22,402 bases of DNA from a virus. The notes below the pieces were generated by a model that did not search any database, was not told the origin of the DNA, and saw only the letters and a program-made list of their open reading frames with translations. Of this stretch, positions 1 through 18,335 are shown one piece after another. Each line of letters begins with the position of its first letter. The first letter of the stretch is position 1. The translations under genes were made by a program, and so were the position numbers. Location: IMG/VR virus record IMGVR_UViG_3300017956_000147, positions 1 to 22,402 of that record; one strand, written 5' to 3'.

Positions 1-132
1 GCACCAGCAGTAGCGCCGACACCCGTTGCGCCGCCACCGCCACCACTACCTGACCCTGGATTCGGCGGATACGTGAACAATATACGCATCTCTCCCTTTA
101 TGGGCGGTTTTAACTTCGGAGGGCTTTTCTAA
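1..132 (+). CDS. Proline-rich virion-type protein, C-terminal fragment
   Basis: An open frame runs from the first base of the window to a TAA at 130-132, giving the last 43 residues of a protein whose start lies upstream. The visible part is Pro/Ala-rich (APTPV followed by a run of five prolines) and ends in a Gly/Phe-rich tail (PFMGGFNFGGLF). The stop overlaps the next start as TAATG, the same coupling seen at other junctions in this gene block, which supports it being a real co-translated gene. The function is not recognisable; the position suggests a structural protein. Confidence 0.7.
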   Translation, partial: APAVAPTPVAPPPPPLPDPGFGGYVNNIRISPFMGGFNFGGLF

Positions 133-2075
133 TGAGCTTCGGAAAAAGTAATCAATCATCGTCGCAGGAGATGGACCCCCAAATCAAGGGCGCGCTGCTC
201 GACGTTTTTAACAGAGGCAGACAGCTCTCTTACACGCCTTACAACCCGTACCAGTTTGCAACGGTCGCGCCTATGTCGCCTTTCCAGCAGCAAGGAATGC
301 AGGCGACTGTCGATGCTGCCAACGCAGGCTTAGGCCGAGGAGAGATGCAAGATGCGATTAACGCAGCACGCGGCGTTGCGCAGTATCGGCCTGGTCAACT
401 GCGCGGCATGGACGTAAGGCAACAGGGACCAATTGATGCTGTCGATGCAGGCGACGCTGCAGGAATGCAGCGAGCATCAGCCATGCGCCTCGGCACTAAC
501 TTCACCCCAGGCACTGCATCGGTCGGAACCGTTAGTACATCGATCGATGCGGGCGACGTTTCGGCGTCTCCAATTAGTACTGGTTATGGCGTTGACCCTG
601 CTCGCATTAATCAAGCGCAAGCGCTCGACCGATTCAAAGGCTCGATTTCTGGCGGCGCGGGCGATCGAATTACCGGGGCAATCACGGCTCCTACTGCGGG
701 GACAATCACAGCCCCTACTATTCAGGCTGGCGATACAGTGACGGAAGATACAGTAACCGCCGGCAGATTTGCTGATACAAATATCGATCCGTATATGTCT
801 CGCTTTCAGACCGGCGTGATTGACGCAGCGCTGGGCGACATCGAGAGACAGCGCAAGATCCAGCAGAACCAGAACAAAGCAGCCGCAGTGGCCGGCGGCG
901 CCTTTGGCGGCGACCGACAGGCCATCCTCGAAGCCGAGACAAACCGCGCAGCGCTTGAGCAATCGGCGCGCACGGCAGCGCAACTTAGGCAATCAGGCTT
1001 TGAGTCGGCAGCACGGCTTGCCGAGGCAGACCTCGCAAGACAGACCGACGCCGCTCGCGCTAACCAACAAGCAGCGTTACAGGCTGACCTTGCTAACCAG
1101 GCGACGGGACTGGACGCAAGCAAGGCCGGCGGGCAGCTCGGCCTGCAAGCGCAAACAACGTCAGCGCAACTCGGCCTGCAAGGCGCGCTAGCGGCGCAGG
1201 ACGCCAATTTGCGTAGGCAGCTTGCTAATCAACAGGTCAGCGTTGGTGATGCTGAGCGAGCCATGCAGGCTAGCTCAACGATGGCCGCTAATCGATTGCA
1301 AAATCGGCAGCAAGAATTGCAGCGCAGGATGAGTAATGTCGCGCAGGCAAACGAAATGAACCGCGCGAACCTCAACGCCCGCATGCAGGAACAGCAACTG
1401 CGCCAGCGAGCCTTGACGGCTAACCAGGATGCAGGATTGCAGGCACAGCTTGCTAATCAGCAAACCGCGCTCGCAGAAGGACAAGCCGCCAACCAGGGCA
1501 GGCTACAAACGCAGGCGCTTGGCGCGCAGGCAAGTCGAGCGAACCAAGATGCTGGCTTACAGGCACAACAACTCGGAGCCCAGCAAGCCCGTGCGAACCA
1601 GCAGGCGTTCTTGCAAGCGTCGCTCGCTAACCAGCAGAACCGGCGTCTGTACGGTTTCCAAAATCAGGACGCGGCGCTACAAGCGCAGCTTGCGAACCAG
1701 CGCACGGCGCTCGATCAGGCAAGGCTCGATCAAGCGCGACGCATCCAGAACCAAGACGCCAGCTTCCAGCGACAGCTCGCCCAGCAAAATCTAGGGCTGC
1801 AAGGAGCCGCGCAGCGGCTCGCTGGTGCTCAGCAGCTTGCTGGGCTTGGCCAGGATATGCGCGGGCTAGCGTTTGCAGACGCGGCAGCTCTGCAAGGGGT
1901 AGGAGATACGCAACGGCAGTTCGCGCAGCAACTGCTCGACGATCAATACCGTCGATTCCAAGAGGCTCAGAACTACCCATTCAGGATGTTCGATGTCTTG
2001 AGAAGCGGCGCAGGCATGCTGCCTAACCCAACGATGACGAGCTCGTCAGGAAGATCAACAAACCTCGGAATCTAA
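132..2075 (+). CDS. Large Gln/Ala-rich repetitive virion protein (ejection or internal protein type)
   Basis: A 647-aa protein. The N-terminal 80 residues are Tyr/Pro/Gln-rich (LSYTPYNPYQF). A Thr/Ala/Gly-rich stretch at about 100-210 follows, then a long Ala/Gln/Asn/Arg helical region from about 230 to 600. That region carries repeated LANQ and NQDA(G/A)LQAQ units; three NQDA copies begin at residues 431, 471 and 511, spaced exactly 40 residues. The C-terminal segment (QNYPFRMFDVLRSGAGMLP) has the look of conserved tails of podoviral virion proteins. There is no signal peptide or enzyme motif. The start is fixed by the TAATG overlap with the preceding gene. A role as a rod-like virion or DNA-ejection protein is inferred from composition, length and neighbours only. 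Confidence 0.85.
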   Translation: MSFGKSNQSSSQEMDPQIKGALLDVFNRGRQLSYTPYNPYQFATVAPMSPFQQQGMQATVDAANAGLGRGEMQDAINAARGVAQYRPGQLRGMDVRQQGPIDAVDAGDAAGMQRASAMRLGTNFTPGTASVGTVSTSIDAGDVSASPISTGYGVDPARINQAQALDRFKGSISGGAGDRITGAITAPTAGTITAPTIQAGDTVTEDTVTAGRFADTNIDPYMSRFQTGVIDAALGDIERQRKIQQNQNKAAAVAGGAFGGDRQAILEAETNRAALEQSARTAAQLRQSGFESAARLAEADLARQTDAARANQQAALQADLANQATGLDASKAGGQLGLQAQTTSAQLGLQGALAAQDANLRRQLANQQVSVGDAERAMQASSTMAANRLQNRQQELQRRMSNVAQANEMNRANLNARMQEQQLRQRALTANQDAGLQAQLANQQTALAEGQAANQGRLQTQALGAQASRANQDAGLQAQQLGAQQARANQQAFLQASLANQQNRRLYGFQNQDAALQAQLANQRTALDQARLDQARRIQNQDASFQRQLAQQNLGLQGAAQRLAGAQQLAGLGQDMRGLAFADAAALQGVGDTQRQFAQQLLDDQYRRFQEAQNYPFRMFDVLRSGAGMLPNPTMTSSSGRSTNLGI

Positions 2076-2078
2076 GTA

Positions 2079-2438
2079 ATGTTTAGTTTAGCGAACATAA
2101 TTAAGCGCCGACTGGCAACGAAGATCGGCGACAAGATGGAAGACATCACTGCCGGCAAAAACTTGCTTGATGATCCATCGCAAATCGGCGGCATGATCAA
2201 AGACAGCATCATGAATCGACCGACCATCGCTGCAGCCACTATGAGCGATGAAGAGTACGAAGAGTATCTGCGTCAACAGATGATGCAGCGTGGTGGTATG
2301 GCCGGTGGGAATCCCTACATGGCGCAGATGCCTGCGCTCGATATGCCGCCCGTTGGCTTAGCGCCGACTGGGGGCTTTGTTGGCCAGACGCCTAACTACC
2401 TCAACTTCGCGCAGCAAAGTTTGGGAGGTCCGTACTGA
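2079..2438 (+). CDS. Hypothetical virion-block protein, 119 aa
   Basis: Starts three bases after the preceding stop and ends in a TGATG overlap with the next gene, so it belongs to the same translationally coupled block. The N-terminal half is mixed charged (IIKRRLATKIGDKMEDITAG). The C-terminal half is Met/Gly/Pro-rich (MMQRGGMAGGNPYMAQMP) and probably disordered. No known family was recognised. The position between two large virion-type proteins suggests a minor structural or assembly protein. Confidence 0.75.
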   Translation: MFSLANIIKRRLATKIGDKMEDITAGKNLLDDPSQIGGMIKDSIMNRPTIAAATMSDEEYEEYLRQQMMQRGGMAGGNPYMAQMPALDMPPVGLAPTGGFVGQTPNYLNFAQQSLGGPY

Positions 2439-3595
2439 TGGAAAACCAATTGCCTTTCGATATCAACTCGCTGACGCCAGAGCAAAAAGCGATTGTCATG
2501 GAGCAACTCATGCAAGCCGGCGGTCAGCCGCAGCAACAGCAGGGCAACTTTGCGACTAACCTTTTTCAGAGGAGGATTCTGCAGCCATTACAAGTAAGGC
2601 TGGGGATGCGTGACTCGCCTCAAGATGTGCTTAGGAAGCAGCAATCGGTATTGAATCAGTTTCAAATGCAAGACCTTATTGCTGATCAGTCGCGCCGAAA
2701 CCAAGCGGCCGAGTATATTGCAGGGCTCGATGCAGAAAGCGCTAAAGCGCTCGGTTTGAATCCAGCGCAACTTGCGCTTGCTCAAGCAAATCCGATAGAG
2801 GCTTACGACGATATCGTCAACAGGGCGTTTTCTCGCGAAACTTACAGCACAACTCCGCAGTACGGATTTACTAAAGATAAAGCTCGCATCGCTTATCAGC
2901 TTGGTGATCGAGGCGGCATGAAAATTATCGATGTCACGCCTACACCAGACACTTACACGGTCGATACTGGCGCAAGTATTCAGATCCTTAGCAGGCTGGA
3001 TAACACGGTCATTGACACAATTGAAAAAGAAATGACGCCGGATCAGGCAGCGCGTGCGCTAATCGAGAAAGATAGAAAAACTAAAGAGGACAAGAACAGA
3101 TTAGTAACCCGCGCAAAAAACCTTCGCACTGAGTTTAATAACATTACCAAAGAAATGCGTGACGTTGGTTTGGCTTACGGAAAAATTCAGGCGTCTTCGA
3201 CTGAGCCGAGCGCAGCAGGCGACATCGCGCTTCTAATTAACTACATGAAGATGCTCGATCCCGGATCGGTCGTAAGAGAAGGGGAGTTCGCGACAGCACA
3301 AAACGCTGGCGGCGTGGAGGCAAGAGTACGAGCGACTTACAACAATTTGTTGCGAGGAGAACGCTTAACAGAGGGCCAGCGGGCAGATTTCTTAGCTTCT
3401 GCCGGCAGAGTACTCGTGCCCTATCGCGATGAGTTCGAGGCAACCAAGCTGCGGTATTCCGCCTTAGCAGAAAGAGAGGGCGTCGCCCCTAGTGATGTCG
3501 TTATCAATGATCCGTTTAGCGGGTTTGGCGTTATTGAAAGAAATAGGCAGTGGTATATCGATCGAGGTTATACGCCACCAAAAGGTATGAAGTAA
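2438..3595 (+). CDS. Putative internal virion protein, 385 aa
   Basis: The ATG overlaps the preceding stop (TGATG) and the stop overlaps the next start (TAATG). The first 45 residues are Gln-rich and low complexity (SLTPEQKAIVMEQLMQAGG, then QPQQQQ). A helical middle follows, and the C-terminal third (about 270-385) contains MKMLDPGSVVREGEFATAQ, then RLTEGQRADFL. I recognise this pattern from predicted internal or structural proteins of podovirus-like phages. No catalytic residues of a lysozyme or transglycosylase are evident. Function as a DNA-ejection or internal core protein is inferred. Confidence 0.8.
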   Translation: MENQLPFDINSLTPEQKAIVMEQLMQAGGQPQQQQGNFATNLFQRRILQPLQVRLGMRDSPQDVLRKQQSVLNQFQMQDLIADQSRRNQAAEYIAGLDAESAKALGLNPAQLALAQANPIEAYDDIVNRAFSRETYSTTPQYGFTKDKARIAYQLGDRGGMKIIDVTPTPDTYTVDTGASIQILSRLDNTVIDTIEKEMTPDQAARALIEKDRKTKEDKNRLVTRAKNLRTEFNNITKEMRDVGLAYGKIQASSTEPSAAGDIALLINYMKMLDPGSVVREGEFATAQNAGGVEARVRATYNNLLRGERLTEGQRADFLASAGRVLVPYRDEFEATKLRYSALAEREGVAPSDVVINDPFSGFGVIERNRQWYIDRGYTPPKGMK

Positions 3596-5442
3596 TGGCA
3601 ACGCAATTAGAAATACTTTTAGAAAACATCGCTATCGCTGAAGCAAACGGTGCGAGCCCGAGAGATATCGAGGGGATGGTTTCCGATTTCGGGTACACAA
3701 AGTCTCGCTTTGAAAACGCCACCAAACGTCTTGCTGAAAGTGGCGGCAAAGTAACTCCTTCTAATGCGTTATCGAACACCCTGCGCGGTTTTACGCTCGG
3801 CGCGTCTGACGCAATCGAGGCGGGCGCTCGATCGCTTGTGGGACCAGAAACCTACTCACAAGAAAGGGCTGCAATCAGACTCGGTGAAGAGGAGTATGCT
3901 GAGGACTATCCCGGCAGAAAGTTTGCCCAGGAGTTCGCCGGTGCAATACCAACAAGTATCGCTGCATCACTGGCGGTGCCAGGATCTGGCGCTGCGGTAC
4001 AGACGAGCCGATTGGCTAACTTTATGCGCGCAGCGCCCGTAGCAATGGGCGAGGGCGCGGTAGCAGGTTACTTTGGCGGAGACGCTGACCCGCTCAGCGC
4101 TGATGCACTGGGAGACGCTGCTATCGGTGCAGGTGTGGGAGCCTTGTTCCCAGCGGCAGGTAGTGCGATCGGAGCAGGGAAGGACGCAATATCACCTGCA
4201 TTCTTGAACAGCGCGCAAGAACGCATTGTGGGGGAAGTGCTGCAGAACGCTGCAACGAATCCGCAAGCTGCCGCTCGTAACCTTGCAGAAAACGCAGAGG
4301 TGTTAGTGCCAGGTAGCGTGCCTACGACCGCGCAAGTAGCGCGCGATCCAGGGCTTGCAAGTTTCGAGACAGGCGTGCGTGGACTAGATCAAAGCGGCCG
4401 CATTGCTCAAAGAATCGGCGAGCAGCAGACCGCACGTGCAGTAGAAATGCAGAGGCTTGCAGGTACTGAGGATGACCTAGCTCGATTGCGAGATTATAGA
4501 GATATGCAAACGGCGCCGATGCGTGAGCAGGCGTTTAGTCAAGGCGGCATCATCGACAACCCCGCTGACATTATCGAATCTTTTACTGCGCTCGCTAATC
4601 GCCCTGGAATCAAAGGCAGGCGGTCGGTAAGAAAGATTATTGAGCGGTTTCGAGACGATGTAAAAATGCTCGCAAAAGACCCGGATGATCCTGACAACTT
4701 GCTGCCGATTGATCCGCGCGACCTTTACGCTGTGAGGCAAGAAATCGGCGACTTGATGTCTGGTCGTTTGCAAACAGATGAGGCTTCCGTTGCAAGGCTT
4801 TCAAAGGCGGAGCTTACCGAGTTAAAGCAACTTATTGACGATGAGATTGAGCTTGTTGCGCCGGGCTTTCAAGATTACTTGCAAACTTATGTAGCGAAGA
4901 GCAGGCCGGTAAATCGAATGGAAACAGTGCAAGACCTACAGCGCCGAGCGCAGGTCGGTACTGATCTACAGACCTTAGAGCCTGTGCTGAGCCCGTTCAA
5001 AATGCGCAATGCGATCAACGCAAGAAAGCGAGACTTCGATCGATTACCGCAGTCAAACAAGAAGCGTGTCAACGCAATCATGCGTGACCTTAATCGATCG
5101 ACGGCCGCGACAGCACCTGGCGTGAAAGTACCAGGTAGCGACACGTTTAAAAACTTATCGATGGCTGCGGCGATAGGGCGGATCTTCGGTGACAACGCAT
5201 CAGACTCAGCAATACCGTCCGGTTTGATGTCGCCATTTAGGACGCTTTACGGCATCACCAACTCCGATGAGAAAATGACAGAACTACTGGTGCAGGCTAT
5301 GCTTGATCCAGAACTGTCAGCAAGACTGTTGAGCAGGGCTACAGAAGAAAACGCTAACAACTTCGTAAACGCTTTGCGCAGGAGGATGCCCGCATTTTTC
5401 TATGGTCAAGGCGCCGCGATGGTTGGATTGAACGTAGATTAA
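3595..5442 (+). CDS. Putative internal virion/ejection protein with Gly/Ala-rich membrane-like segment
   Basis: A 615-aa protein starting at the ATG of the TAATG overlap; an in-frame ATG at 3550 would add 15 residues but lies inside the preceding gene. The N-terminal 50 residues are a charged helical domain. Residues about 60-200 are Gly/Ala-rich and amphipathic (FAQEFAGAIPTSIAASLAV; GDAAIGAGVGALFPAAGSA), typical of phage proteins that enter the host envelope. The rest is a long mixed helical region with RDLYAVRQEIGDLM. This is the last gene before the terminator and attP-like region, so it closes the structural operon. Role inferred, not shown by a known domain. Confidence 0.82.
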   Translation: MATQLEILLENIAIAEANGASPRDIEGMVSDFGYTKSRFENATKRLAESGGKVTPSNALSNTLRGFTLGASDAIEAGARSLVGPETYSQERAAIRLGEEEYAEDYPGRKFAQEFAGAIPTSIAASLAVPGSGAAVQTSRLANFMRAAPVAMGEGAVAGYFGGDADPLSADALGDAAIGAGVGALFPAAGSAIGAGKDAISPAFLNSAQERIVGEVLQNAATNPQAAARNLAENAEVLVPGSVPTTAQVARDPGLASFETGVRGLDQSGRIAQRIGEQQTARAVEMQRLAGTEDDLARLRDYRDMQTAPMREQAFSQGGIIDNPADIIESFTALANRPGIKGRRSVRKIIERFRDDVKMLAKDPDDPDNLLPIDPRDLYAVRQEIGDLMSGRLQTDEASVARLSKAELTELKQLIDDEIELVAPGFQDYLQTYVAKSRPVNRMETVQDLQRRAQVGTDLQTLEPVLSPFKMRNAINARKRDFDRLPQSNKKRVNAIMRDLNRSTAATAPGVKVPGSDTFKNLSMAAAIGRIFGDNASDSAIPSGLMSPFRTLYGITNSDEKMTELLVQAMLDPELSARLLSRATEENANNFVNALRRRMPAFFYGQGAAMVGLNVD

Positions 5443-5676: not shown

Positions 5677-6657
5677 GTGAAGGGAACATTTAGAAAGCGA
5701 GGGGATCGCTGGGAGGCCGGCGTTATGGTCGGCGGTCAAAGAAGATCTAAAACATTCGACACTAAGCGACTGGCGCAAGCCTGGGTCGCGGAGATGGTGA
5801 CAAAGGACACTGGCGTCGCGCTTTTGAACAGTACGCTTGCCGATCTTAGTGCGCGCTACGAGCGGGAGGTGAGCGAAGCGAAGAAAGGCGCCAGGTGGGA
5901 GATGATTCGCTTAAAGATGTACGAGCGCGATTATCCCAAGCTATTCGCTCGCAAACTTTCTAGCATTCAGCGTGAGGACATCGAGCAGCTAATCGATGAC
6001 CGGCTAAAGCAGGTGAAGCCGAGCACAGTCAATCGTGACCTCAACCTTATCGCTAACTTATTCACGCAGGCGCGCCGCTGGCGCATGATGACGCACAACC
6101 CGATGGCAGACATTAAGCGACCGAAAGATCCGCCGCCGCGCGACAGGCGCATCTCGCAGGAGGAGATCGATCGATTGCTTGTTGCCCTTGATCACGTTGA
6201 CGGCGCGCAGCCCAGAACGCAAAGACAGAAAGTCGCGACAGCATTTCTGATTGCGCTTGAGACGGCGATGCGCCAGGGCGAGATCTGCAAGGTGACGTGG
6301 GATGACGTGCATCTTGATGAGCGCTACGTTTTTCTGCCGCACACCATTACGAAGACTGGTGTGCAGCGCAACGTGCCTTTATCGAAAGAGGCAGTGCGTT
6401 TGATCGGCACATTACCAAGAGAGAAAGAAGAGATGCTCGGCGTGTCAGCCGGCGTGGTCAGTACAATGTTTAGGAAAGCAGTCGCTGACTCAGCGATCGA
6501 TAACTTGACGTTTCATGATAGTCGGCATGAGGCAACGACTCGGCTTGCTCAGAAACTGCTGGTGTTAGATCTTGCTCGCGTAACCGGGCATCGAGACATT
6601 AAGCAACTCATGACCTACTACAATAAAGATGCGCGCGAGCTCGCAGACTTGCTCTAG
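5677..6657 (+). CDS. int: Tyrosine recombinase (phage integrase)
   Basis: A 326-aa protein that catalyses site-specific recombination between attP and the host attachment site. The N-terminal part (about 1-45) is a short arm-binding-like domain (FRKRGDRWEAGVMVGG). The core-binding SAM-like domain spans about 50-145, and the catalytic domain about 155-320. The expected residues are present: R199 in AMRQGEI, K226, H280-x-x-R283 in FHDSRHEA, H305 in TGHRD and the nucleophile Tyr at 314 (possibly 315) in LMTYYN. The start is GTG with AGGAG five bases upstream. It is convergent with the excisionase-like gene, overlapping by four bases. Adjacent arm repeats and a tRNA-like core support the role. 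Confidence 0.96.
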   Translation: MKGTFRKRGDRWEAGVMVGGQRRSKTFDTKRLAQAWVAEMVTKDTGVALLNSTLADLSARYEREVSEAKKGARWEMIRLKMYERDYPKLFARKLSSIQREDIEQLIDDRLKQVKPSTVNRDLNLIANLFTQARRWRMMTHNPMADIKRPKDPPPRDRRISQEEIDRLLVALDHVDGAQPRTQRQKVATAFLIALETAMRQGEICKVTWDDVHLDERYVFLPHTITKTGVQRNVPLSKEAVRLIGTLPREKEEMLGVSAGVVSTMFRKAVADSAIDNLTFHDSRHEATTRLAQKLLVLDLARVTGHRDIKQLMTYYNKDARELADLL

Positions 6658-11591: not shown

Positions 11592-11786
11592 ATGACACCC
11601 CCATGCATTTGGAATGAGATCAACGTGAGCCGACTAGCGAAGTCGTTGGATGTTGCGCGGATGACTATTTACAAATGGAAATCGAGCGAGAGGGGTATCC
11701 CAGCCGAGCGCGCGATCGAGATCGAGGAAATCACGGGCATCAAGCGTGCGCGCTTACGTCCAGATTTGTGGCCGGCAGATGAGTGA
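11592..11786 (+). CDS. YdaS/Cro-like antirepressor DNA-binding protein
   Basis: A 64-aa protein with GGAG ten bases upstream of the ATG. The sequence VSRLAKSLDVARMTIYKWKS, then GIPAERAIEIEEITG and LRPDLWP, is the compact helix-turn-helix pattern of the YdaS/Cro family. It is the first gene of the rightward operon and divergent from the XRE repressor. It probably represses lysogeny genes and promotes lytic replication. Its stop overlaps the primase start by eight bases. Confidence 0.88.
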   Translation: MTPPCIWNEINVSRLAKSLDVARMTIYKWKSSERGIPAERAIEIEEITGIKRARLRPDLWPADE

Positions 11787-13713
11787 GGCGCTTGTGACGA
11801 GGAATGAAATGGCTTGGGATCTATGGCAGCGAGGGCTCACCGTCCTGCCGGCGCATCCTATACAGAAGCGACCGCTCGTAAGCTGGGAGCGATACCAGGT
11901 CGAAGAGGTCAGCGAAGACCTCATGAACTATTGGACGAGCTCAGCCAAATTCGCTGAATGCAATTGGGCACTTGTCACCGGCAAGGAATATGTAGTAGTC
12001 GATGCTGACTCTCTCGATGCCATGATATGGGTTGATAACAATCTGCCTTGGACGCCGCTCAAGGTGAAGACCAGCCGCGGCAAGCACTACTACTTCCGAG
12101 TCAATCCACACTGCCCAGTGAAGTCGAGCGCGAATCCAGACTCGAAACTCGACGTGCGCGGGCAGGGCGGCATCGTTATCGCGCCTGGCTCGATTCATCA
12201 GAGCGGCAAGACCTACGAAATCGAGGTGGAGACGGGCATCGATGATCCTTTCGAGGGTATCCCGATTTGGGACTCAACCTTCCAAGAAAAGATCGATGCA
12301 GAGAACAAGCCAACGAACGTGGTCGCGATCCACGGCGCAACGCAGGGCGGCTGGCATGAGCGCATGATCAAAGAAGTCGCGAGCAAAGTGATGCGCGACT
12401 ACACGGATGAAGAAATACTCGCGGAGGCGCCCGCTTGGACAGAGCCGGGCTACACGGTCGAAGAAACGCTCGAAGAATTCCAGGTGGCGATCGATGGGGC
12501 TCGAAAGAAGTGGGCCGAGTCTATTGAGCGGAAGAAGGCACAAAAAGAAGAGGAAGTCGCGATAGCAACTGAGGCGCGGCGCGCAGCGCTGGCGCCGAGG
12601 CCGTTTGTGATGGCAGACCCGGCGGCGATCCCACCTCGTCAGTGGGTGTATGGGCGGCACTACATCCGGCGCTTTCTCAGCGTGACGGTCGCTGCGGGCG
12701 GATCGGGTAAGACCGCGCTCACGCTCACAGAAGCGATCGCAATGGCGACGGGCAAAGACATCCTTGGCACAGAAACGCTACCGCGCAGGGTGTGGGTCTG
12801 GAACCTCGAAGACCCGCTCGAAGAACTGCAGCGACGCATCGCTGGCATCTGCCAGCACTACAACGTCAAGCAAGAAGATTTTGCGGATCGGCTCTACGTG
12901 AACAGCGGTCGCGACAGCAAACTTTTGATAGCGGATAGCGAGCGCGGCGAAGCCGCGCTGACGCCTGCAGTCGATGAGATCACACACTTTATTAACGAGC
13001 ACTCGATCGACGTGATCATTGTTGATCCTTTCGTGAGCTCGCACAGACTGAATGAGAACGACAACGGCCAGATGGACCTGGTCGTCAAAGCCTGGGGGCA
13101 GATCGCCGATAGGGGCAACTGCGCCGTAGAGCTCGTGCACCACGTCCGAAAGGCGCAACCAGGACAATCGGCCAGCTATGGCGACGCTCGCGGAGCGAGC
13201 GCGCTTACGGACGCCGCCAGGCACGTGCGCCGGCTGCAGAGAATGACGGCAGAGGAAGCGAGGCTTGCCGGGATCGACGAGCGCGAGTTTTGGCAGTACT
13301 CACGCGAAGCCGACAGCAAAGACAACCTAGCACCGCCGAGTCGCGACAGCTCTTGGCGGAAGATGGTGAGTGTAGAAATCGCGAACGGGGACAGCATAGG
13401 GGTGATGGAGCCTTGGCAGTGGCCTGATGCTTTTGAGGACGTGACGGCGGCGGATTTAGCGCACGTTCAAGGGCTTATACGCGACGGAGAGTGGCGCGAG
13501 GACGTGCGCTCGAAGCAATGGGTCGGGCTTGCCGTGGCTCAGGTGCTGGGTCTAGACGAGCGCGATGAGGCCGTGAAAAGCAAAATCAAGACGATGCTAC
13601 AAACGTGGATTGATAACAGAGAGCTGAAGGTAGTGGAGCGACCTGATGCCCAGCGCAGACCGCGCAAATATATTGAAGTAGGGGACGCTCCGTCATGGAT
13701 GATGGATTACTAA
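11779..13713 (+). CDS. Prim-Pol primase-polymerase fused to a RepA-type AAA helicase
   Basis: A 644-aa replication protein. The start is the ATG overlapping the Cro-like stop (ATGAGTGA); an ATG at 11746 would add 11 residues. The N-terminal bifunctional primase/polymerase domain (about 10-180) has VVDAD at 73-77, SRGKHYYF at 99-106 and DVRGQGG followed by IVIAPGSIH at 125-139. A charged helical linker covers about 195-280. The C-terminal RecA-fold ATPase has Walker A AGGSGKTA at 306-313, Walker B DVIIVDPF at 411-418 and HHVRK at 454-458, as in RepA/AAA_25 proteins. Primase and helicase in one chain, next to an iteron region, suggest that it starts replication of the phage origin. Confidence 0.92.
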   Translation: MSEALVTRNEMAWDLWQRGLTVLPAHPIQKRPLVSWERYQVEEVSEDLMNYWTSSAKFAECNWALVTGKEYVVVDADSLDAMIWVDNNLPWTPLKVKTSRGKHYYFRVNPHCPVKSSANPDSKLDVRGQGGIVIAPGSIHQSGKTYEIEVETGIDDPFEGIPIWDSTFQEKIDAENKPTNVVAIHGATQGGWHERMIKEVASKVMRDYTDEEILAEAPAWTEPGYTVEETLEEFQVAIDGARKKWAESIERKKAQKEEEVAIATEARRAALAPRPFVMADPAAIPPRQWVYGRHYIRRFLSVTVAAGGSGKTALTLTEAIAMATGKDILGTETLPRRVWVWNLEDPLEELQRRIAGICQHYNVKQEDFADRLYVNSGRDSKLLIADSERGEAALTPAVDEITHFINEHSIDVIIVDPFVSSHRLNENDNGQMDLVVKAWGQIADRGNCAVELVHHVRKAQPGQSASYGDARGASALTDAARHVRRLQRMTAEEARLAGIDEREFWQYSREADSKDNLAPPSRDSSWRKMVSVEIANGDSIGVMEPWQWPDAFEDVTAADLAHVQGLIRDGEWREDVRSKQWVGLAVAQVLGLDERDEAVKSKIKTMLQTWIDNRELKVVERPDAQRRPRKYIEVGDAPSWMMDY

Positions 13714-14171
13714 CGTGCAAAGTATGTTTAACCGACAAACCCGCGACCGATTTCTACCCTTCTGAAAGGAAGGGCGAGTACAAACGATGTAAGACGTGCA
13801 TCCGTACTGCCAGGCAGAAGCGCATCAATGCCGGGCATAAGCCGTACTTAAAGCTGCTTTTCGGACAACTGCGCAGCAAGCGTAAATCGCTCGGCGTCGA
13901 TTGGGAGATTGAGCTTGAGGACGTGCTCGACCTTTGGGATCAGCAGAACGGCAAGTGCGCGCTATCGAACCTCAATATGACCCATCACCGAGTGGGTGTC
14001 TCTCAGAAACGCCCTTTCAACGCCTCGATCGACCGAATCAACCACAACGAAGGCTACCTAAAAAACAACGTGCAGCTCGTCTGCAGCCAGGTAAATACCA
14101 TGCGACACACGCTCAATTTGGACGAGTTTTGGTGGTGGATCAAGACCATTTCGGAGCACCAAAGTGACTAG
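13695..14171 (+). CDS. HNH endonuclease with N-terminal zinc finger
   Basis: A 158-aa protein overlapping the primase end by 19 bases. C8-x2-C11 and C32-x2-C35 form an N-terminal zinc finger (TCKVC; RCKTC). The C-terminal part has the HNH-like pattern KCALSNLNM, ASIDRINHNEGYLKNNVQLV, and CSQVNTMR, with the D-R-I-N-H and N residues of the phage HNH fold. It ends at the left edge of the iteron region. It may be a homing-type endonuclease or a nicking enzyme for replication. It is far from the terminase pair, so a packaging role is less likely. Confidence 0.85.
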   Translation: MDDGLLTCKVCLTDKPATDFYPSERKGEYKRCKTCIRTARQKRINAGHKPYLKLLFGQLRSKRKSLGVDWEIELEDVLDLWDQQNGKCALSNLNMTHHRVGVSQKRPFNASIDRINHNEGYLKNNVQLVCSQVNTMRHTLNLDEFWWWIKTISEHQSD

Positions 14172-14186
14172 TTTTGACTACTTTCG

Positions 14187-14411
14187 TGCTCCAGTGCTCC
14201 AGTCTTGCTCCAGTTCACCAAAAAGACTGGAGCAGTCAATAAAATCAATGACTTACGCGATTCTGCTCCAGTTGCTCCAGTTTGTTTTTGCTCCAGTTTG
14301 TTTTTGTTGTCGATTTATTCAATTAAATCAACGACTTATAGGATCTGCTCCAGTGCTCCAGTTGCCCTATATAAATATATATACAACTGGAGCGCTTACG
14401 CGCTCCGAGTT
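14187..14411. repeat. ori: Iteron array with AT-rich core, candidate replication origin
   Basis: Eight exact forward TGCTCCAGT copies start at 14187, 14195, 14206, 14264, 14273, 14289, 14346 and 14354. An inverted copy (ACTGGAGCA) lies at 14226, and an inverted 8-base match at 14386-14393. CCAGTTG and CAACTGG flank a 19-bp AT-rich stretch at 14366-14384, a likely unwinding element. To the right, GGAGCGC-TTAC-GCGCTCC forms a 7-bp hairpin. A larger imperfect unit, TCAA(T/C)GACTTA plus two iterons, occurs twice about 82 bp apart. The region lies between the primase/HNH genes and the next replication-type genes. Confidence 0.75.
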
Positions 14412-14519
14412 CATATATTTCTATTTTATGGCGGCGCGGCGGAGCCGCTCGCGAAGCAGAATTTCGCAACTCGTTTTGCGGGGGTTAGGATTTATGCGAT
14501 CGGCCAGGAGGGCTGAGTG
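14412..14519. other. Leader region right of the origin, no gene seen
   Basis: Rightward frames through 14164-14520 cross the iterons and do not look like protein. The sequence holds a GC-rich imperfect hairpin near 14432-14452 (GCGGC and GCCGC) and ends with the AGGAGG of the next gene. A promoter may lie in the AT-rich 14410-14430 stretch, but I could not define one. Confidence 0.4.
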
Positions 14520-17585: not shown

Positions 17586-18335
17586 ATGAAAACAAGAAGC
17601 ATCAGGGGCGAGTACCGCAAGCGCCGCCAGGTTCAGGAGCAAGCAGAAAGGAGAGCAACCATGATCTACGGATACACCCGCGTAAGCACGGAAGAGCAAG
17701 CCGACGGCACGTCCCTCGCAACGCAACGCACCATGATTCAGGGCGTTGCTCTCGCGAGCCAGCTCCCGACGGACATCACGTACCTAGCCGACCCCGGCGT
17801 GAGCGGCAGCGTGCCGTTCTTCGCCAGACAGGCTGTCGCGACTCTTGCCCTGCAGCCCGGCGACATCATTATCTGCAGCGCCCTTGATCGATTTAGCCGC
17901 GACGCGCGCGATTGCCTTAACACGATCCACGAGCTCAAGGAGCTCGGCGTGCGTTTGTTCTTGAACGGCCACGGCGACGTGACCGACGAGGGCAACGTCA
18001 CAGCGCGCCTCATGCTTGAAATCATGGCAGCGTTCGCCGGCCACGAGCGCCGCGTGATCAAGGAGCGCACAACGCGTGGCCGGCGCGCGAAGCGCGAGCG
18101 GGGCGGCTTTATCGGCGGCGAAGCGCCCTGGGGCTGCGCCATCGAGGGTGAGGGCAAAGAAGCGATCGTTGTCGAGCTCCCGCAGCGCCGCGAGGCGATC
18201 GGCAAGATGCGCGAGCTCCGCGACGCAGGAAAAAGCTATCGCGACATAGCGCAACTCATTTCTGCGCAATACAATCTCGCCACCTCTCACATGAAAGTTA
18301 AGCGAGCATTGGATGCCGAAAGCATCAGCCCCTAA
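17586..18335 (+). CDS. Serine recombinase (resolvase/invertase type)
   Basis: A 249-aa frame. The recombinase proper starts at M26 (ATG 17661, AAAGGAG seven bases upstream) with the family opening MIYGYTRVSTEEQ. Counting from there, the nucleophile is S9 with R7; DRFSRDARD at 76-84 holds the conserved Arg residues, and HERRVIKERT at 128-137 starts the long helix. The C-terminal SYRDIAQLISAQYN is a helix-turn-helix. The 17586 ATG also has an excellent site (GGAGGAG, five bases upstream) and adds a basic 25-residue tail, so two forms are possible. It lies between terS and terL and overlaps terL by 23 bases. Sites and substrate are unknown. Confidence 0.9.
   Translation: MKTRSIRGEYRKRRQVQEQAERRATMIYGYTRVSTEEQADGTSLATQRTMIQGVALASQLPTDITYLADPGVSGSVPFFARQAVATLALQPGDIIICSALDRFSRDARDCLNTIHELKELGVRLFLNGHGDVTDEGNVTARLMLEIMAAFAGHERRVIKERTTRGRRAKRERGGFIGGEAPWGCAIEGEGKEAIVVELPQRREAIGKMRELRDAGKSYRDIAQLISAQYNLATSHMKVKRALDAESISP

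Follow-up and report, generated by a model that had tools for sequence, protein, structure and literature searches.

Gene content and iteron array of the viral record

The window, meaning the whole stretch of 22,402 nucleotides that was analysed, carries a tyrosine integrase, repressor and Cro-like genes, Sak4, exonuclease genes, terS and terL, and looks like a temperate phage or prophage fragment. In addition to the tyrosine integrase (5677–6657), it has a serine resolvase-type recombinase gene (17586–18335) between terS and terL. Three large open reading frames left of the integrase (647, 385 and 630 amino acids, within 132–5442) had no Pfam matches, and one of them matches phrog_13634; they are possibly cargo or host flank. 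The central gene order is helicase, HNH/EndoVII-like gene, repeat array, small genes and terS, with the following features:

11746–13713, + strand: Prim-Pol/RepA-type (AAA_25) helicase with a C-terminal winged helix, 655 amino acids, the proposed initiator (PF09250, PF13481, 1g8y)
13695–14171, + strand: HNH/EndoVII-like gene between helicase and array, overlapping the helicase stop (PHROG endonuclease matches)
14187–14195, + strand: iteron 1, TGCTCCAGT, exact match
14195–14203, + strand: iteron 2, exact match, one base in common with iteron 1
14206–14214, + strand: iteron 3, exact match
14226–14234, − strand: iteron 4, inverted, exact match
14264–14272, + strand: iteron 5, exact match
14273–14281, + strand: iteron 6, exact match
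14289–14297, + strand: iteron 7, exact match
14346–14354, + strand: iteron 8, exact match
14354–14362, + strand: iteron 9, exact match, one base in common with iteron 8, left of the central palindrome
14386–14394, − strand: iteron 10, inverted, 8/9 match (CGCTCCAGT), right of the central palindrome
14358–14390: central palindrome and proposed melting site, CCAGTTG, 19 AT-rich nucleotides and CAACTGG, between convergent iterons
14389–14406: hairpin GGAGCGC-TTAC-GCGCTCC, with compensating arm changes in relatives

The helicase gene, earlier placed at 11779–13713, has its best start at 11746 or close by and runs to the stop at 13713. Nine exact copies of TGCTCCAGT (eight forward, one inverted) lie within 176 bp (14187–14362) and none elsewhere in the 22,402-base record, against 0.17 expected by chance and a maximum of 2 in 100 dinucleotide shuffles. 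A preliminary description of this DNA had proposed an iteron-type origin here, citing eight forward copies, an inverted exact copy and an inverted 8-base match in a noncoding stretch of about 350 bp; all were recovered at the positions given, the noncoding stretch at about 14172–14519. The pairs that it called abutting (14187/14195 and 14346/14354) are indeed adjacent copies, which overlap by one base (8-bp period). Its check for scattering of the 9-mer across the genome also came out favourably, all exact copies being confined to the array. Several near-identical short repeats, as expected of an iteron origin, lie beside the proposed initiator gene.

The helicase carries a predicted winged-helix tail

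The window protein begins with a PF09250 Prim-Pol domain (E 6e-18, amino acids 25–175) and has no Toprim match. Its match to PF13481 (AAA_25; E 3e-42) marks a RecA-fold ATPase core related to RepA, and RSF1010 RepA (1g8y, E 1.4e-11) was the sole PDB relative of this ATPase by sequence. The protein is thus classed by sequence as an RSF1010 RepA-type (AAA_25) helicase, with putative hexameric helicase activity. A tail of about 100 amino acids extends beyond the ATPase domain, and an AlphaFold2 model of amino acids 536–655 (mean pLDDT 80.9, about 90 over the domain) gave it an H-H-H-E-E topology, that is, the three helices followed by a two-stranded wing of a winged helix. In this model, residues 636–638 form the wing tip and residue 588 lies in the loop before helix 2:

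13447–13680, + strand: winged-helix domain (amino acids 568–645), the proposed iteron reader (AlphaFold2 model, winged-helix matches)
13507–13509, + strand: codon of Arg588, which covaries with iteron bases 8–9 (R: GT, Q: CC)
13651–13659, + strand: codons of wing-tip Gln636-Arg637-Arg638, which covary with bases 4–5 (636 and 638) and base 2 (637)

The best structural matches of the tail were winged helices (RQC, PadR, MarR) with modest scores (best Foldseek E 0.02), and because these matches are weak the winged-helix call rests on topology. The 50 listed structural matches did not include the origin-binding domain of phage P4, an absence that is uninformative, and a profile search of the tail against PDB sequences returned nothing significant. 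On the relatives' loci examined, no protein apart from the helicases clearly had this tail; tail matches without a simple P-loop pattern were the helicases themselves, fragments of them or weak matches.

Iteron spelling switches together with the wing in close relatives

In close relatives an array sits at this position too and with this layout, so that the check on relatives named in the preliminary description also came out in its favour, but it is written in another spelling in all or nearly all copies. Five spellings occur overall: in addition to that of the window we found TGCGTCAGT (L012, L013, L015, L020, L021), TGCGCCAGT (L014), TTCTCCAGT (L016, L018) and TTCGCCAGT (L022, L025). Tail residues track the spelling, QRRP occurring with TGCTCC, QRHL or QRHM with TGCGTC, HRKL with TGCGCC, KSRV with TTCTCC and QSKN with TTCGCC. 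The earlier proposal that this particular 9-mer is the recognition unit is therefore right about the array, which is kept, and wrong about the word, which varies with the protein.

The helicases of the window and L012 are 98% identical, and their DNA differs at 18/18 specificity bases, at 2/61 of the remaining iteron positions and at 32/205 outside positions. Compared with an 88% relative (L017), the window differs at 0/79 iteron bases and at 21/203 outside bases. Slippage or mobility can spread short repeats, and such an array might have no binding function at all, being a product of chance or of a mobile repeat family. This account is scarcely credible given nine copies where 0.17 are expected, iteron bases that are kept while spacers drift, and a spelling predictable from the protein (below), a covariation that already contradicts it.

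We also ran a DNA-only cross-check in which viral contigs were scanned for the 17-mer TGCTCCAGTGCTCCAGT, which brought in unrelated contigs as well. Where such contigs had at least five exact 9-mers (L033, L035, L039, L041, L045, L047, L049, L053), the array lay immediately on the 3' side of the gene for an AAA_25 helicase whose wing is R-R or R-K; L031 and L036, found in the same way, have arrays, but no helicase gene is visible because the contigs end close to the array. The opposite truncation occurs at L019 (1971–3971), whose helicase is nearly identical to that of the window over the last ~170 residues, has the wing KSRM and sits on a contig that stops before the array; its iteron unit is predicted to start with TTC. 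The nearest named phage relative, Rhizobium phage RHph_X2_26, has neither the wing motif nor an array, and the bacterial genomes of one class that were searched yielded few full-length relatives with the wing.

Four residues covary with five iteron bases across the family

Alignment-based scans gave 164 unique helicases, 159 of them with enough 3' sequence. A repeated 3' 9-mer above all 30 shuffles was present for 133/159, and no array rose above shuffles for the remaining 26, which could stem from too few copies, from a genuine loss or from sites located elsewhere. We kept 119 arrays with at least three exact copies, excluding by hand eight loci of unclear register. Taking one array for each combination of 80% helicase cluster and iteron left 78 non-redundant representatives, which cover 36 iteron types. 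Iteron detection mildly favoured the observed word shape and used no protein information.

Mutual information between every alignment column (about 380) and every iteron base was concentrated on residues 637 (z 31), 638 (z 16), 636 (z 9) and 588 (z 25–31). Base 2 follows residue 637 (R with G in 71/71 and S or G with T in 7/7 of the 78 loci; z 31, next column 5). Base 4 tracks residues 638 (z 16) and 636 (z 9), base 5 tracks 638 (z 8) and, less sharply, 636, and bases 8–9 track residue 588 (z 25 and 31), with R paired to GT in 38/40 and Q to CC in 28/30. From these pairings we derived a largely predictable code: at 637, R would specify G and S or G would specify T; at 588, R would specify GT and Q CC; and at 638, together with 636, the Q-R-R type would specify TC, H a G at base 4, E CG, and N-R-N or T-R-M AT. 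The code has gaps, as K-R-M wings and K at 638 pair with several spellings, and base 2 seems to be A or C at two hand-excluded loci whose residue 637 is Gly. The pairings are chemically plausible for direct readout, R, H and K occurring with G or C:G pairs and E with C.

The preliminary description had attributed recognition to the fused primase-polymerase/helicase without a separate initiator, perhaps with help from the HNH protein. The helicase stands, but its reading part would be the C-terminal winged helix and not the Prim-Pol. Helicases without a detectable Prim-Pol domain (L106, L110, L033, L128) have the same arrays and follow the same code, and the Prim-Pol was accordingly rejected as reader and is better regarded as an optional partner.

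Of 684 located iterons, 672 are 3' of the helicase gene, 9 inside it and 3 upstream. The first iteron lies a median of 21 nt past the helicase stop, and in 90/119 relatives the array begins within 60 nt of that stop with no gene between. An HNH/EndoVII-like gene divides helicase from array in the window clade, and in most relatives nothing is there. Involvement of the HNH protein is thus unlikely and its candidacy as reader found no support; given the 90/119 arrays next to the stop, its gene looks lodged between reader and site. It could be a homing-type insertion, for which the origin-directed nuclease Odn of ICP1, as presented in part of PMC8263062, is a comparison.

A more general form of this idea is that some other phage or host protein, such as the HNH protein or a small neighbour, reads the iterons and that the wing covaries through gene linkage. 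Genes beside the array are linked and are exchanged along with it, and in the window clade it is the HNH gene that adjoins it. We nevertheless regard this as very improbable: of ~380 columns, the covariation involves just three adjacent residues at the wing tip and one in a loop, it holds across clusters joined at 55–60% identity and on plasmids, and most arrays directly follow the helicase stop.

Hold-out tests, blind prediction and plasmids

When whole clusters joined at 60% identity were withheld, the four residues gave all five variable bases correctly in 49% of held-out cases, compared with 4% for the nearest relative and 14% for the majority base. Using a tree built from the helicase core, with the tail removed, we compared 59 disjoint pairs: neither wing nor spelling had changed in 21, the wing only in 7, the spelling only in 2 and both in 29 (Fisher P 4e-8). 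Ranking all columns by these pairs placed residue 638 first (7e-8) and 636 second (2e-5).

For a blind set of 18 new helicases (closest training relative 49–81%), 11 had a clear array, and the exact 9-mer was predicted in 7/11. Per base, predictions were correct in 10/11 for base 2, 11/11 for base 4, 9/11 for base 5 and 10/11 for bases 8–9.

Four small alphaproteobacterial plasmids were also examined, and helicase and array do occur together on circular plasmids. The iterons of pR24_3 (KRN, Q; TGCCCCACC), M. lotononidis unnamed3 (KGN, Q; TTCCCCACC) and the phage-plasmid Rhodoplanes plasmid 1 (MRH, Q; TGCGTCACC) are as the code predicts, the last not being fully independent because its wing is the same as that of L508 in the blind set. 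Plasmid pVL1_6 (L519, NZ_AP024151.1, 7592–9060) falls outside the code: its wing is altered, and its G-rich repeat is another one, AAGGTGGGG. On Methylobacteriaceae plasmids a separate Toprim gene adjoins the helicase. One of the plasmids has repBC, and the plasmids do not prove origin function because they may carry another Rep protein.

A central palindrome lies between convergent iterons

In the window, CCAGTTG (14358–14364) and CAACTGG (14384–14390) enclose 19 bases of which 16 are A/T (CCCTATATAAATATATATA), an AT-rich element of the kind expected for unwinding. The inverted pair had been reported with "nearly pure A/T" bases inside, a slightly generous wording for a pair that is present, and the neighbouring GGAGCGC hairpin was found as reported. 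As a universal element, an AT-rich core was rejected, a stretch at least 90% A/T occurring in just 8/78 family loci. Palindromes with a stem of at least 6 were found in convergent iteron gaps at 46/78 loci, compared with 3 for divergent and 9 for tandem gaps, and the AT-rich core of the window would be the local form of this general central palindrome between convergent iterons. A CCCCTAAAGGGG-type central palindrome is present in 27/78 loci against 2.5 expected, and that of the window clade is TATATAAATATATATA, preceded by CCC. At L053, L110, L154, L157, L181 and others, the CCCCTAAAGGGG-type palindrome lies 50–230 nt past the helicase stop between convergent iterons; melting, priming or termination are possible roles. 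GC skew was also tried as an origin test and set aside as uninformative, because its sign changes follow gene direction in the window and its extremes are not at the array in four plasmids.

Plasmid iteron arrays act in control as well as in initiation. The tail might accordingly read iterons whose main task is control, by autoregulation or by handcuffing-type copy control, with replication starting elsewhere; the terminator-like hairpin located at the array and the 26 helicases without a clear array would fit. The array is, however, 3' of the gene and not at its promoter (672/684 located iterons), no sigma-70-like promoter beyond chance was found in or near the array, and a palindrome between convergent sites is an origin-like layout. 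We consider a mainly regulatory array unlikely, and the same site could also serve autoregulation.

Proposed mechanism and significance

The unique array, its position 3' of the helicase in relatives and the covariation all support the iteron-type candidate origin of the preliminary description. The array is probably an origin, and the C-terminal winged helix of the RepA-type helicase is its likely reader. Taken together, we assign a probability of roughly 0.8 to the reading that the array is the phage replication origin and that the helicase encoded upstream is its own initiator, acting through winged-helix reading of the iterons.

Following this logic, the C-terminal winged helix would bind the 9-mers one by one, with wing-tip Gln636-Arg637-Arg638 reading bases 4–5 and 2 and Arg588 reading bases 8–9. 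Sites flanking the central AT-rich palindrome would then load helicase rings, the palindrome would melt, and the N-terminal Prim-Pol would prime. A specificity switch would consist of a few wing residues changing together with all iterons, so that related phages would carry distinct origins. Direct binding, readout geometry, loading, melting, origin function and exclusivity between origin types are what we infer from sequence comparison and modelling.

For the family as a whole, we think it quite likely that a large group of RepA-type helicases of phages and some plasmids act as initiators unaided, the wing tip reading iterons through a compact and mostly predictable code, and that wing and iterons switch together, so that close relatives carry many origin types that exclude one another. 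This would offer a sequence-only route to origins and initiator names for a large set of phages and phage-plasmids, most of it unannotated. The 36 iteron types paired with their readers are a natural data set for base choice by winged helices, apparently through the wing tip. The system also makes testable the joint specificity change of one protein and about ten sites, and whether specificity switching sets replication compatibility between related phages.

Comparison with known systems

The iteron origin/initiator theme is already known; the residue-to-base code appears to be new, as we found no published description of such a code for replication initiators in the open-access literature, nor a base-by-base code with natural switching for P4. 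The helicase of the P4 alpha protein belongs to superfamily 3. In satellite phage P4, the single protein alpha unites a primase, a helicase and, at its C-terminus, a winged-helix domain that binds the origin, with repeats as the binding sites (PMC4234260, which cites Ziegelin and Lanka 1995 and Yeo et al. 2002). The likeness, as far as that account goes, is a winged-helix origin binder joined to a helicase (and in the window to a primase), with repeats as the proposed sites. The enzymatic domains differ: in place of the Toprim-type primase of P4 alpha (PMC4234260) the window protein has a Prim-Pol, and in place of the superfamily-3 helicase a RepA/RecA-fold (AAA_25) one. ORF904 of Sulfolobus plasmid pRN1 likewise joins Prim-Pol and helicase to a C-terminal winged helix, and its origin follows the gene on the 3' side (PMC4234260). 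Its helicase is of the SF3 type and its origin a stem-loop without iterons, in contrast to the RepA/AAA_25 helicase and iterons of the window.

RSF1010 (IncQ) resembles the window in its RepA-type helicase, iterons and archaeo-eukaryotic-type primase. There the roles belong to three separate proteins, with iterons read by RepC (PMC4234260), whereas here helicase and reader are fused and, in the window, the primase too. By analogy, the best explanation is that a single polypeptide does what RSF1010 divides among RepC as iteron reader, RepA as helicase and RepB' as primase.

For specificity switching, the comparison is RepA of the PLE satellite of Vibrio cholerae, whose initiator DNA-binding domain and origin covary from one related element to another as a swappable module, as shown by origin swaps (part of PMC8263062). 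In that part of the source, PLE has a RepA_N initiator and two allele groups with no residue-to-base code noted, whereas the family described here has 36 iteron types and a readable code.
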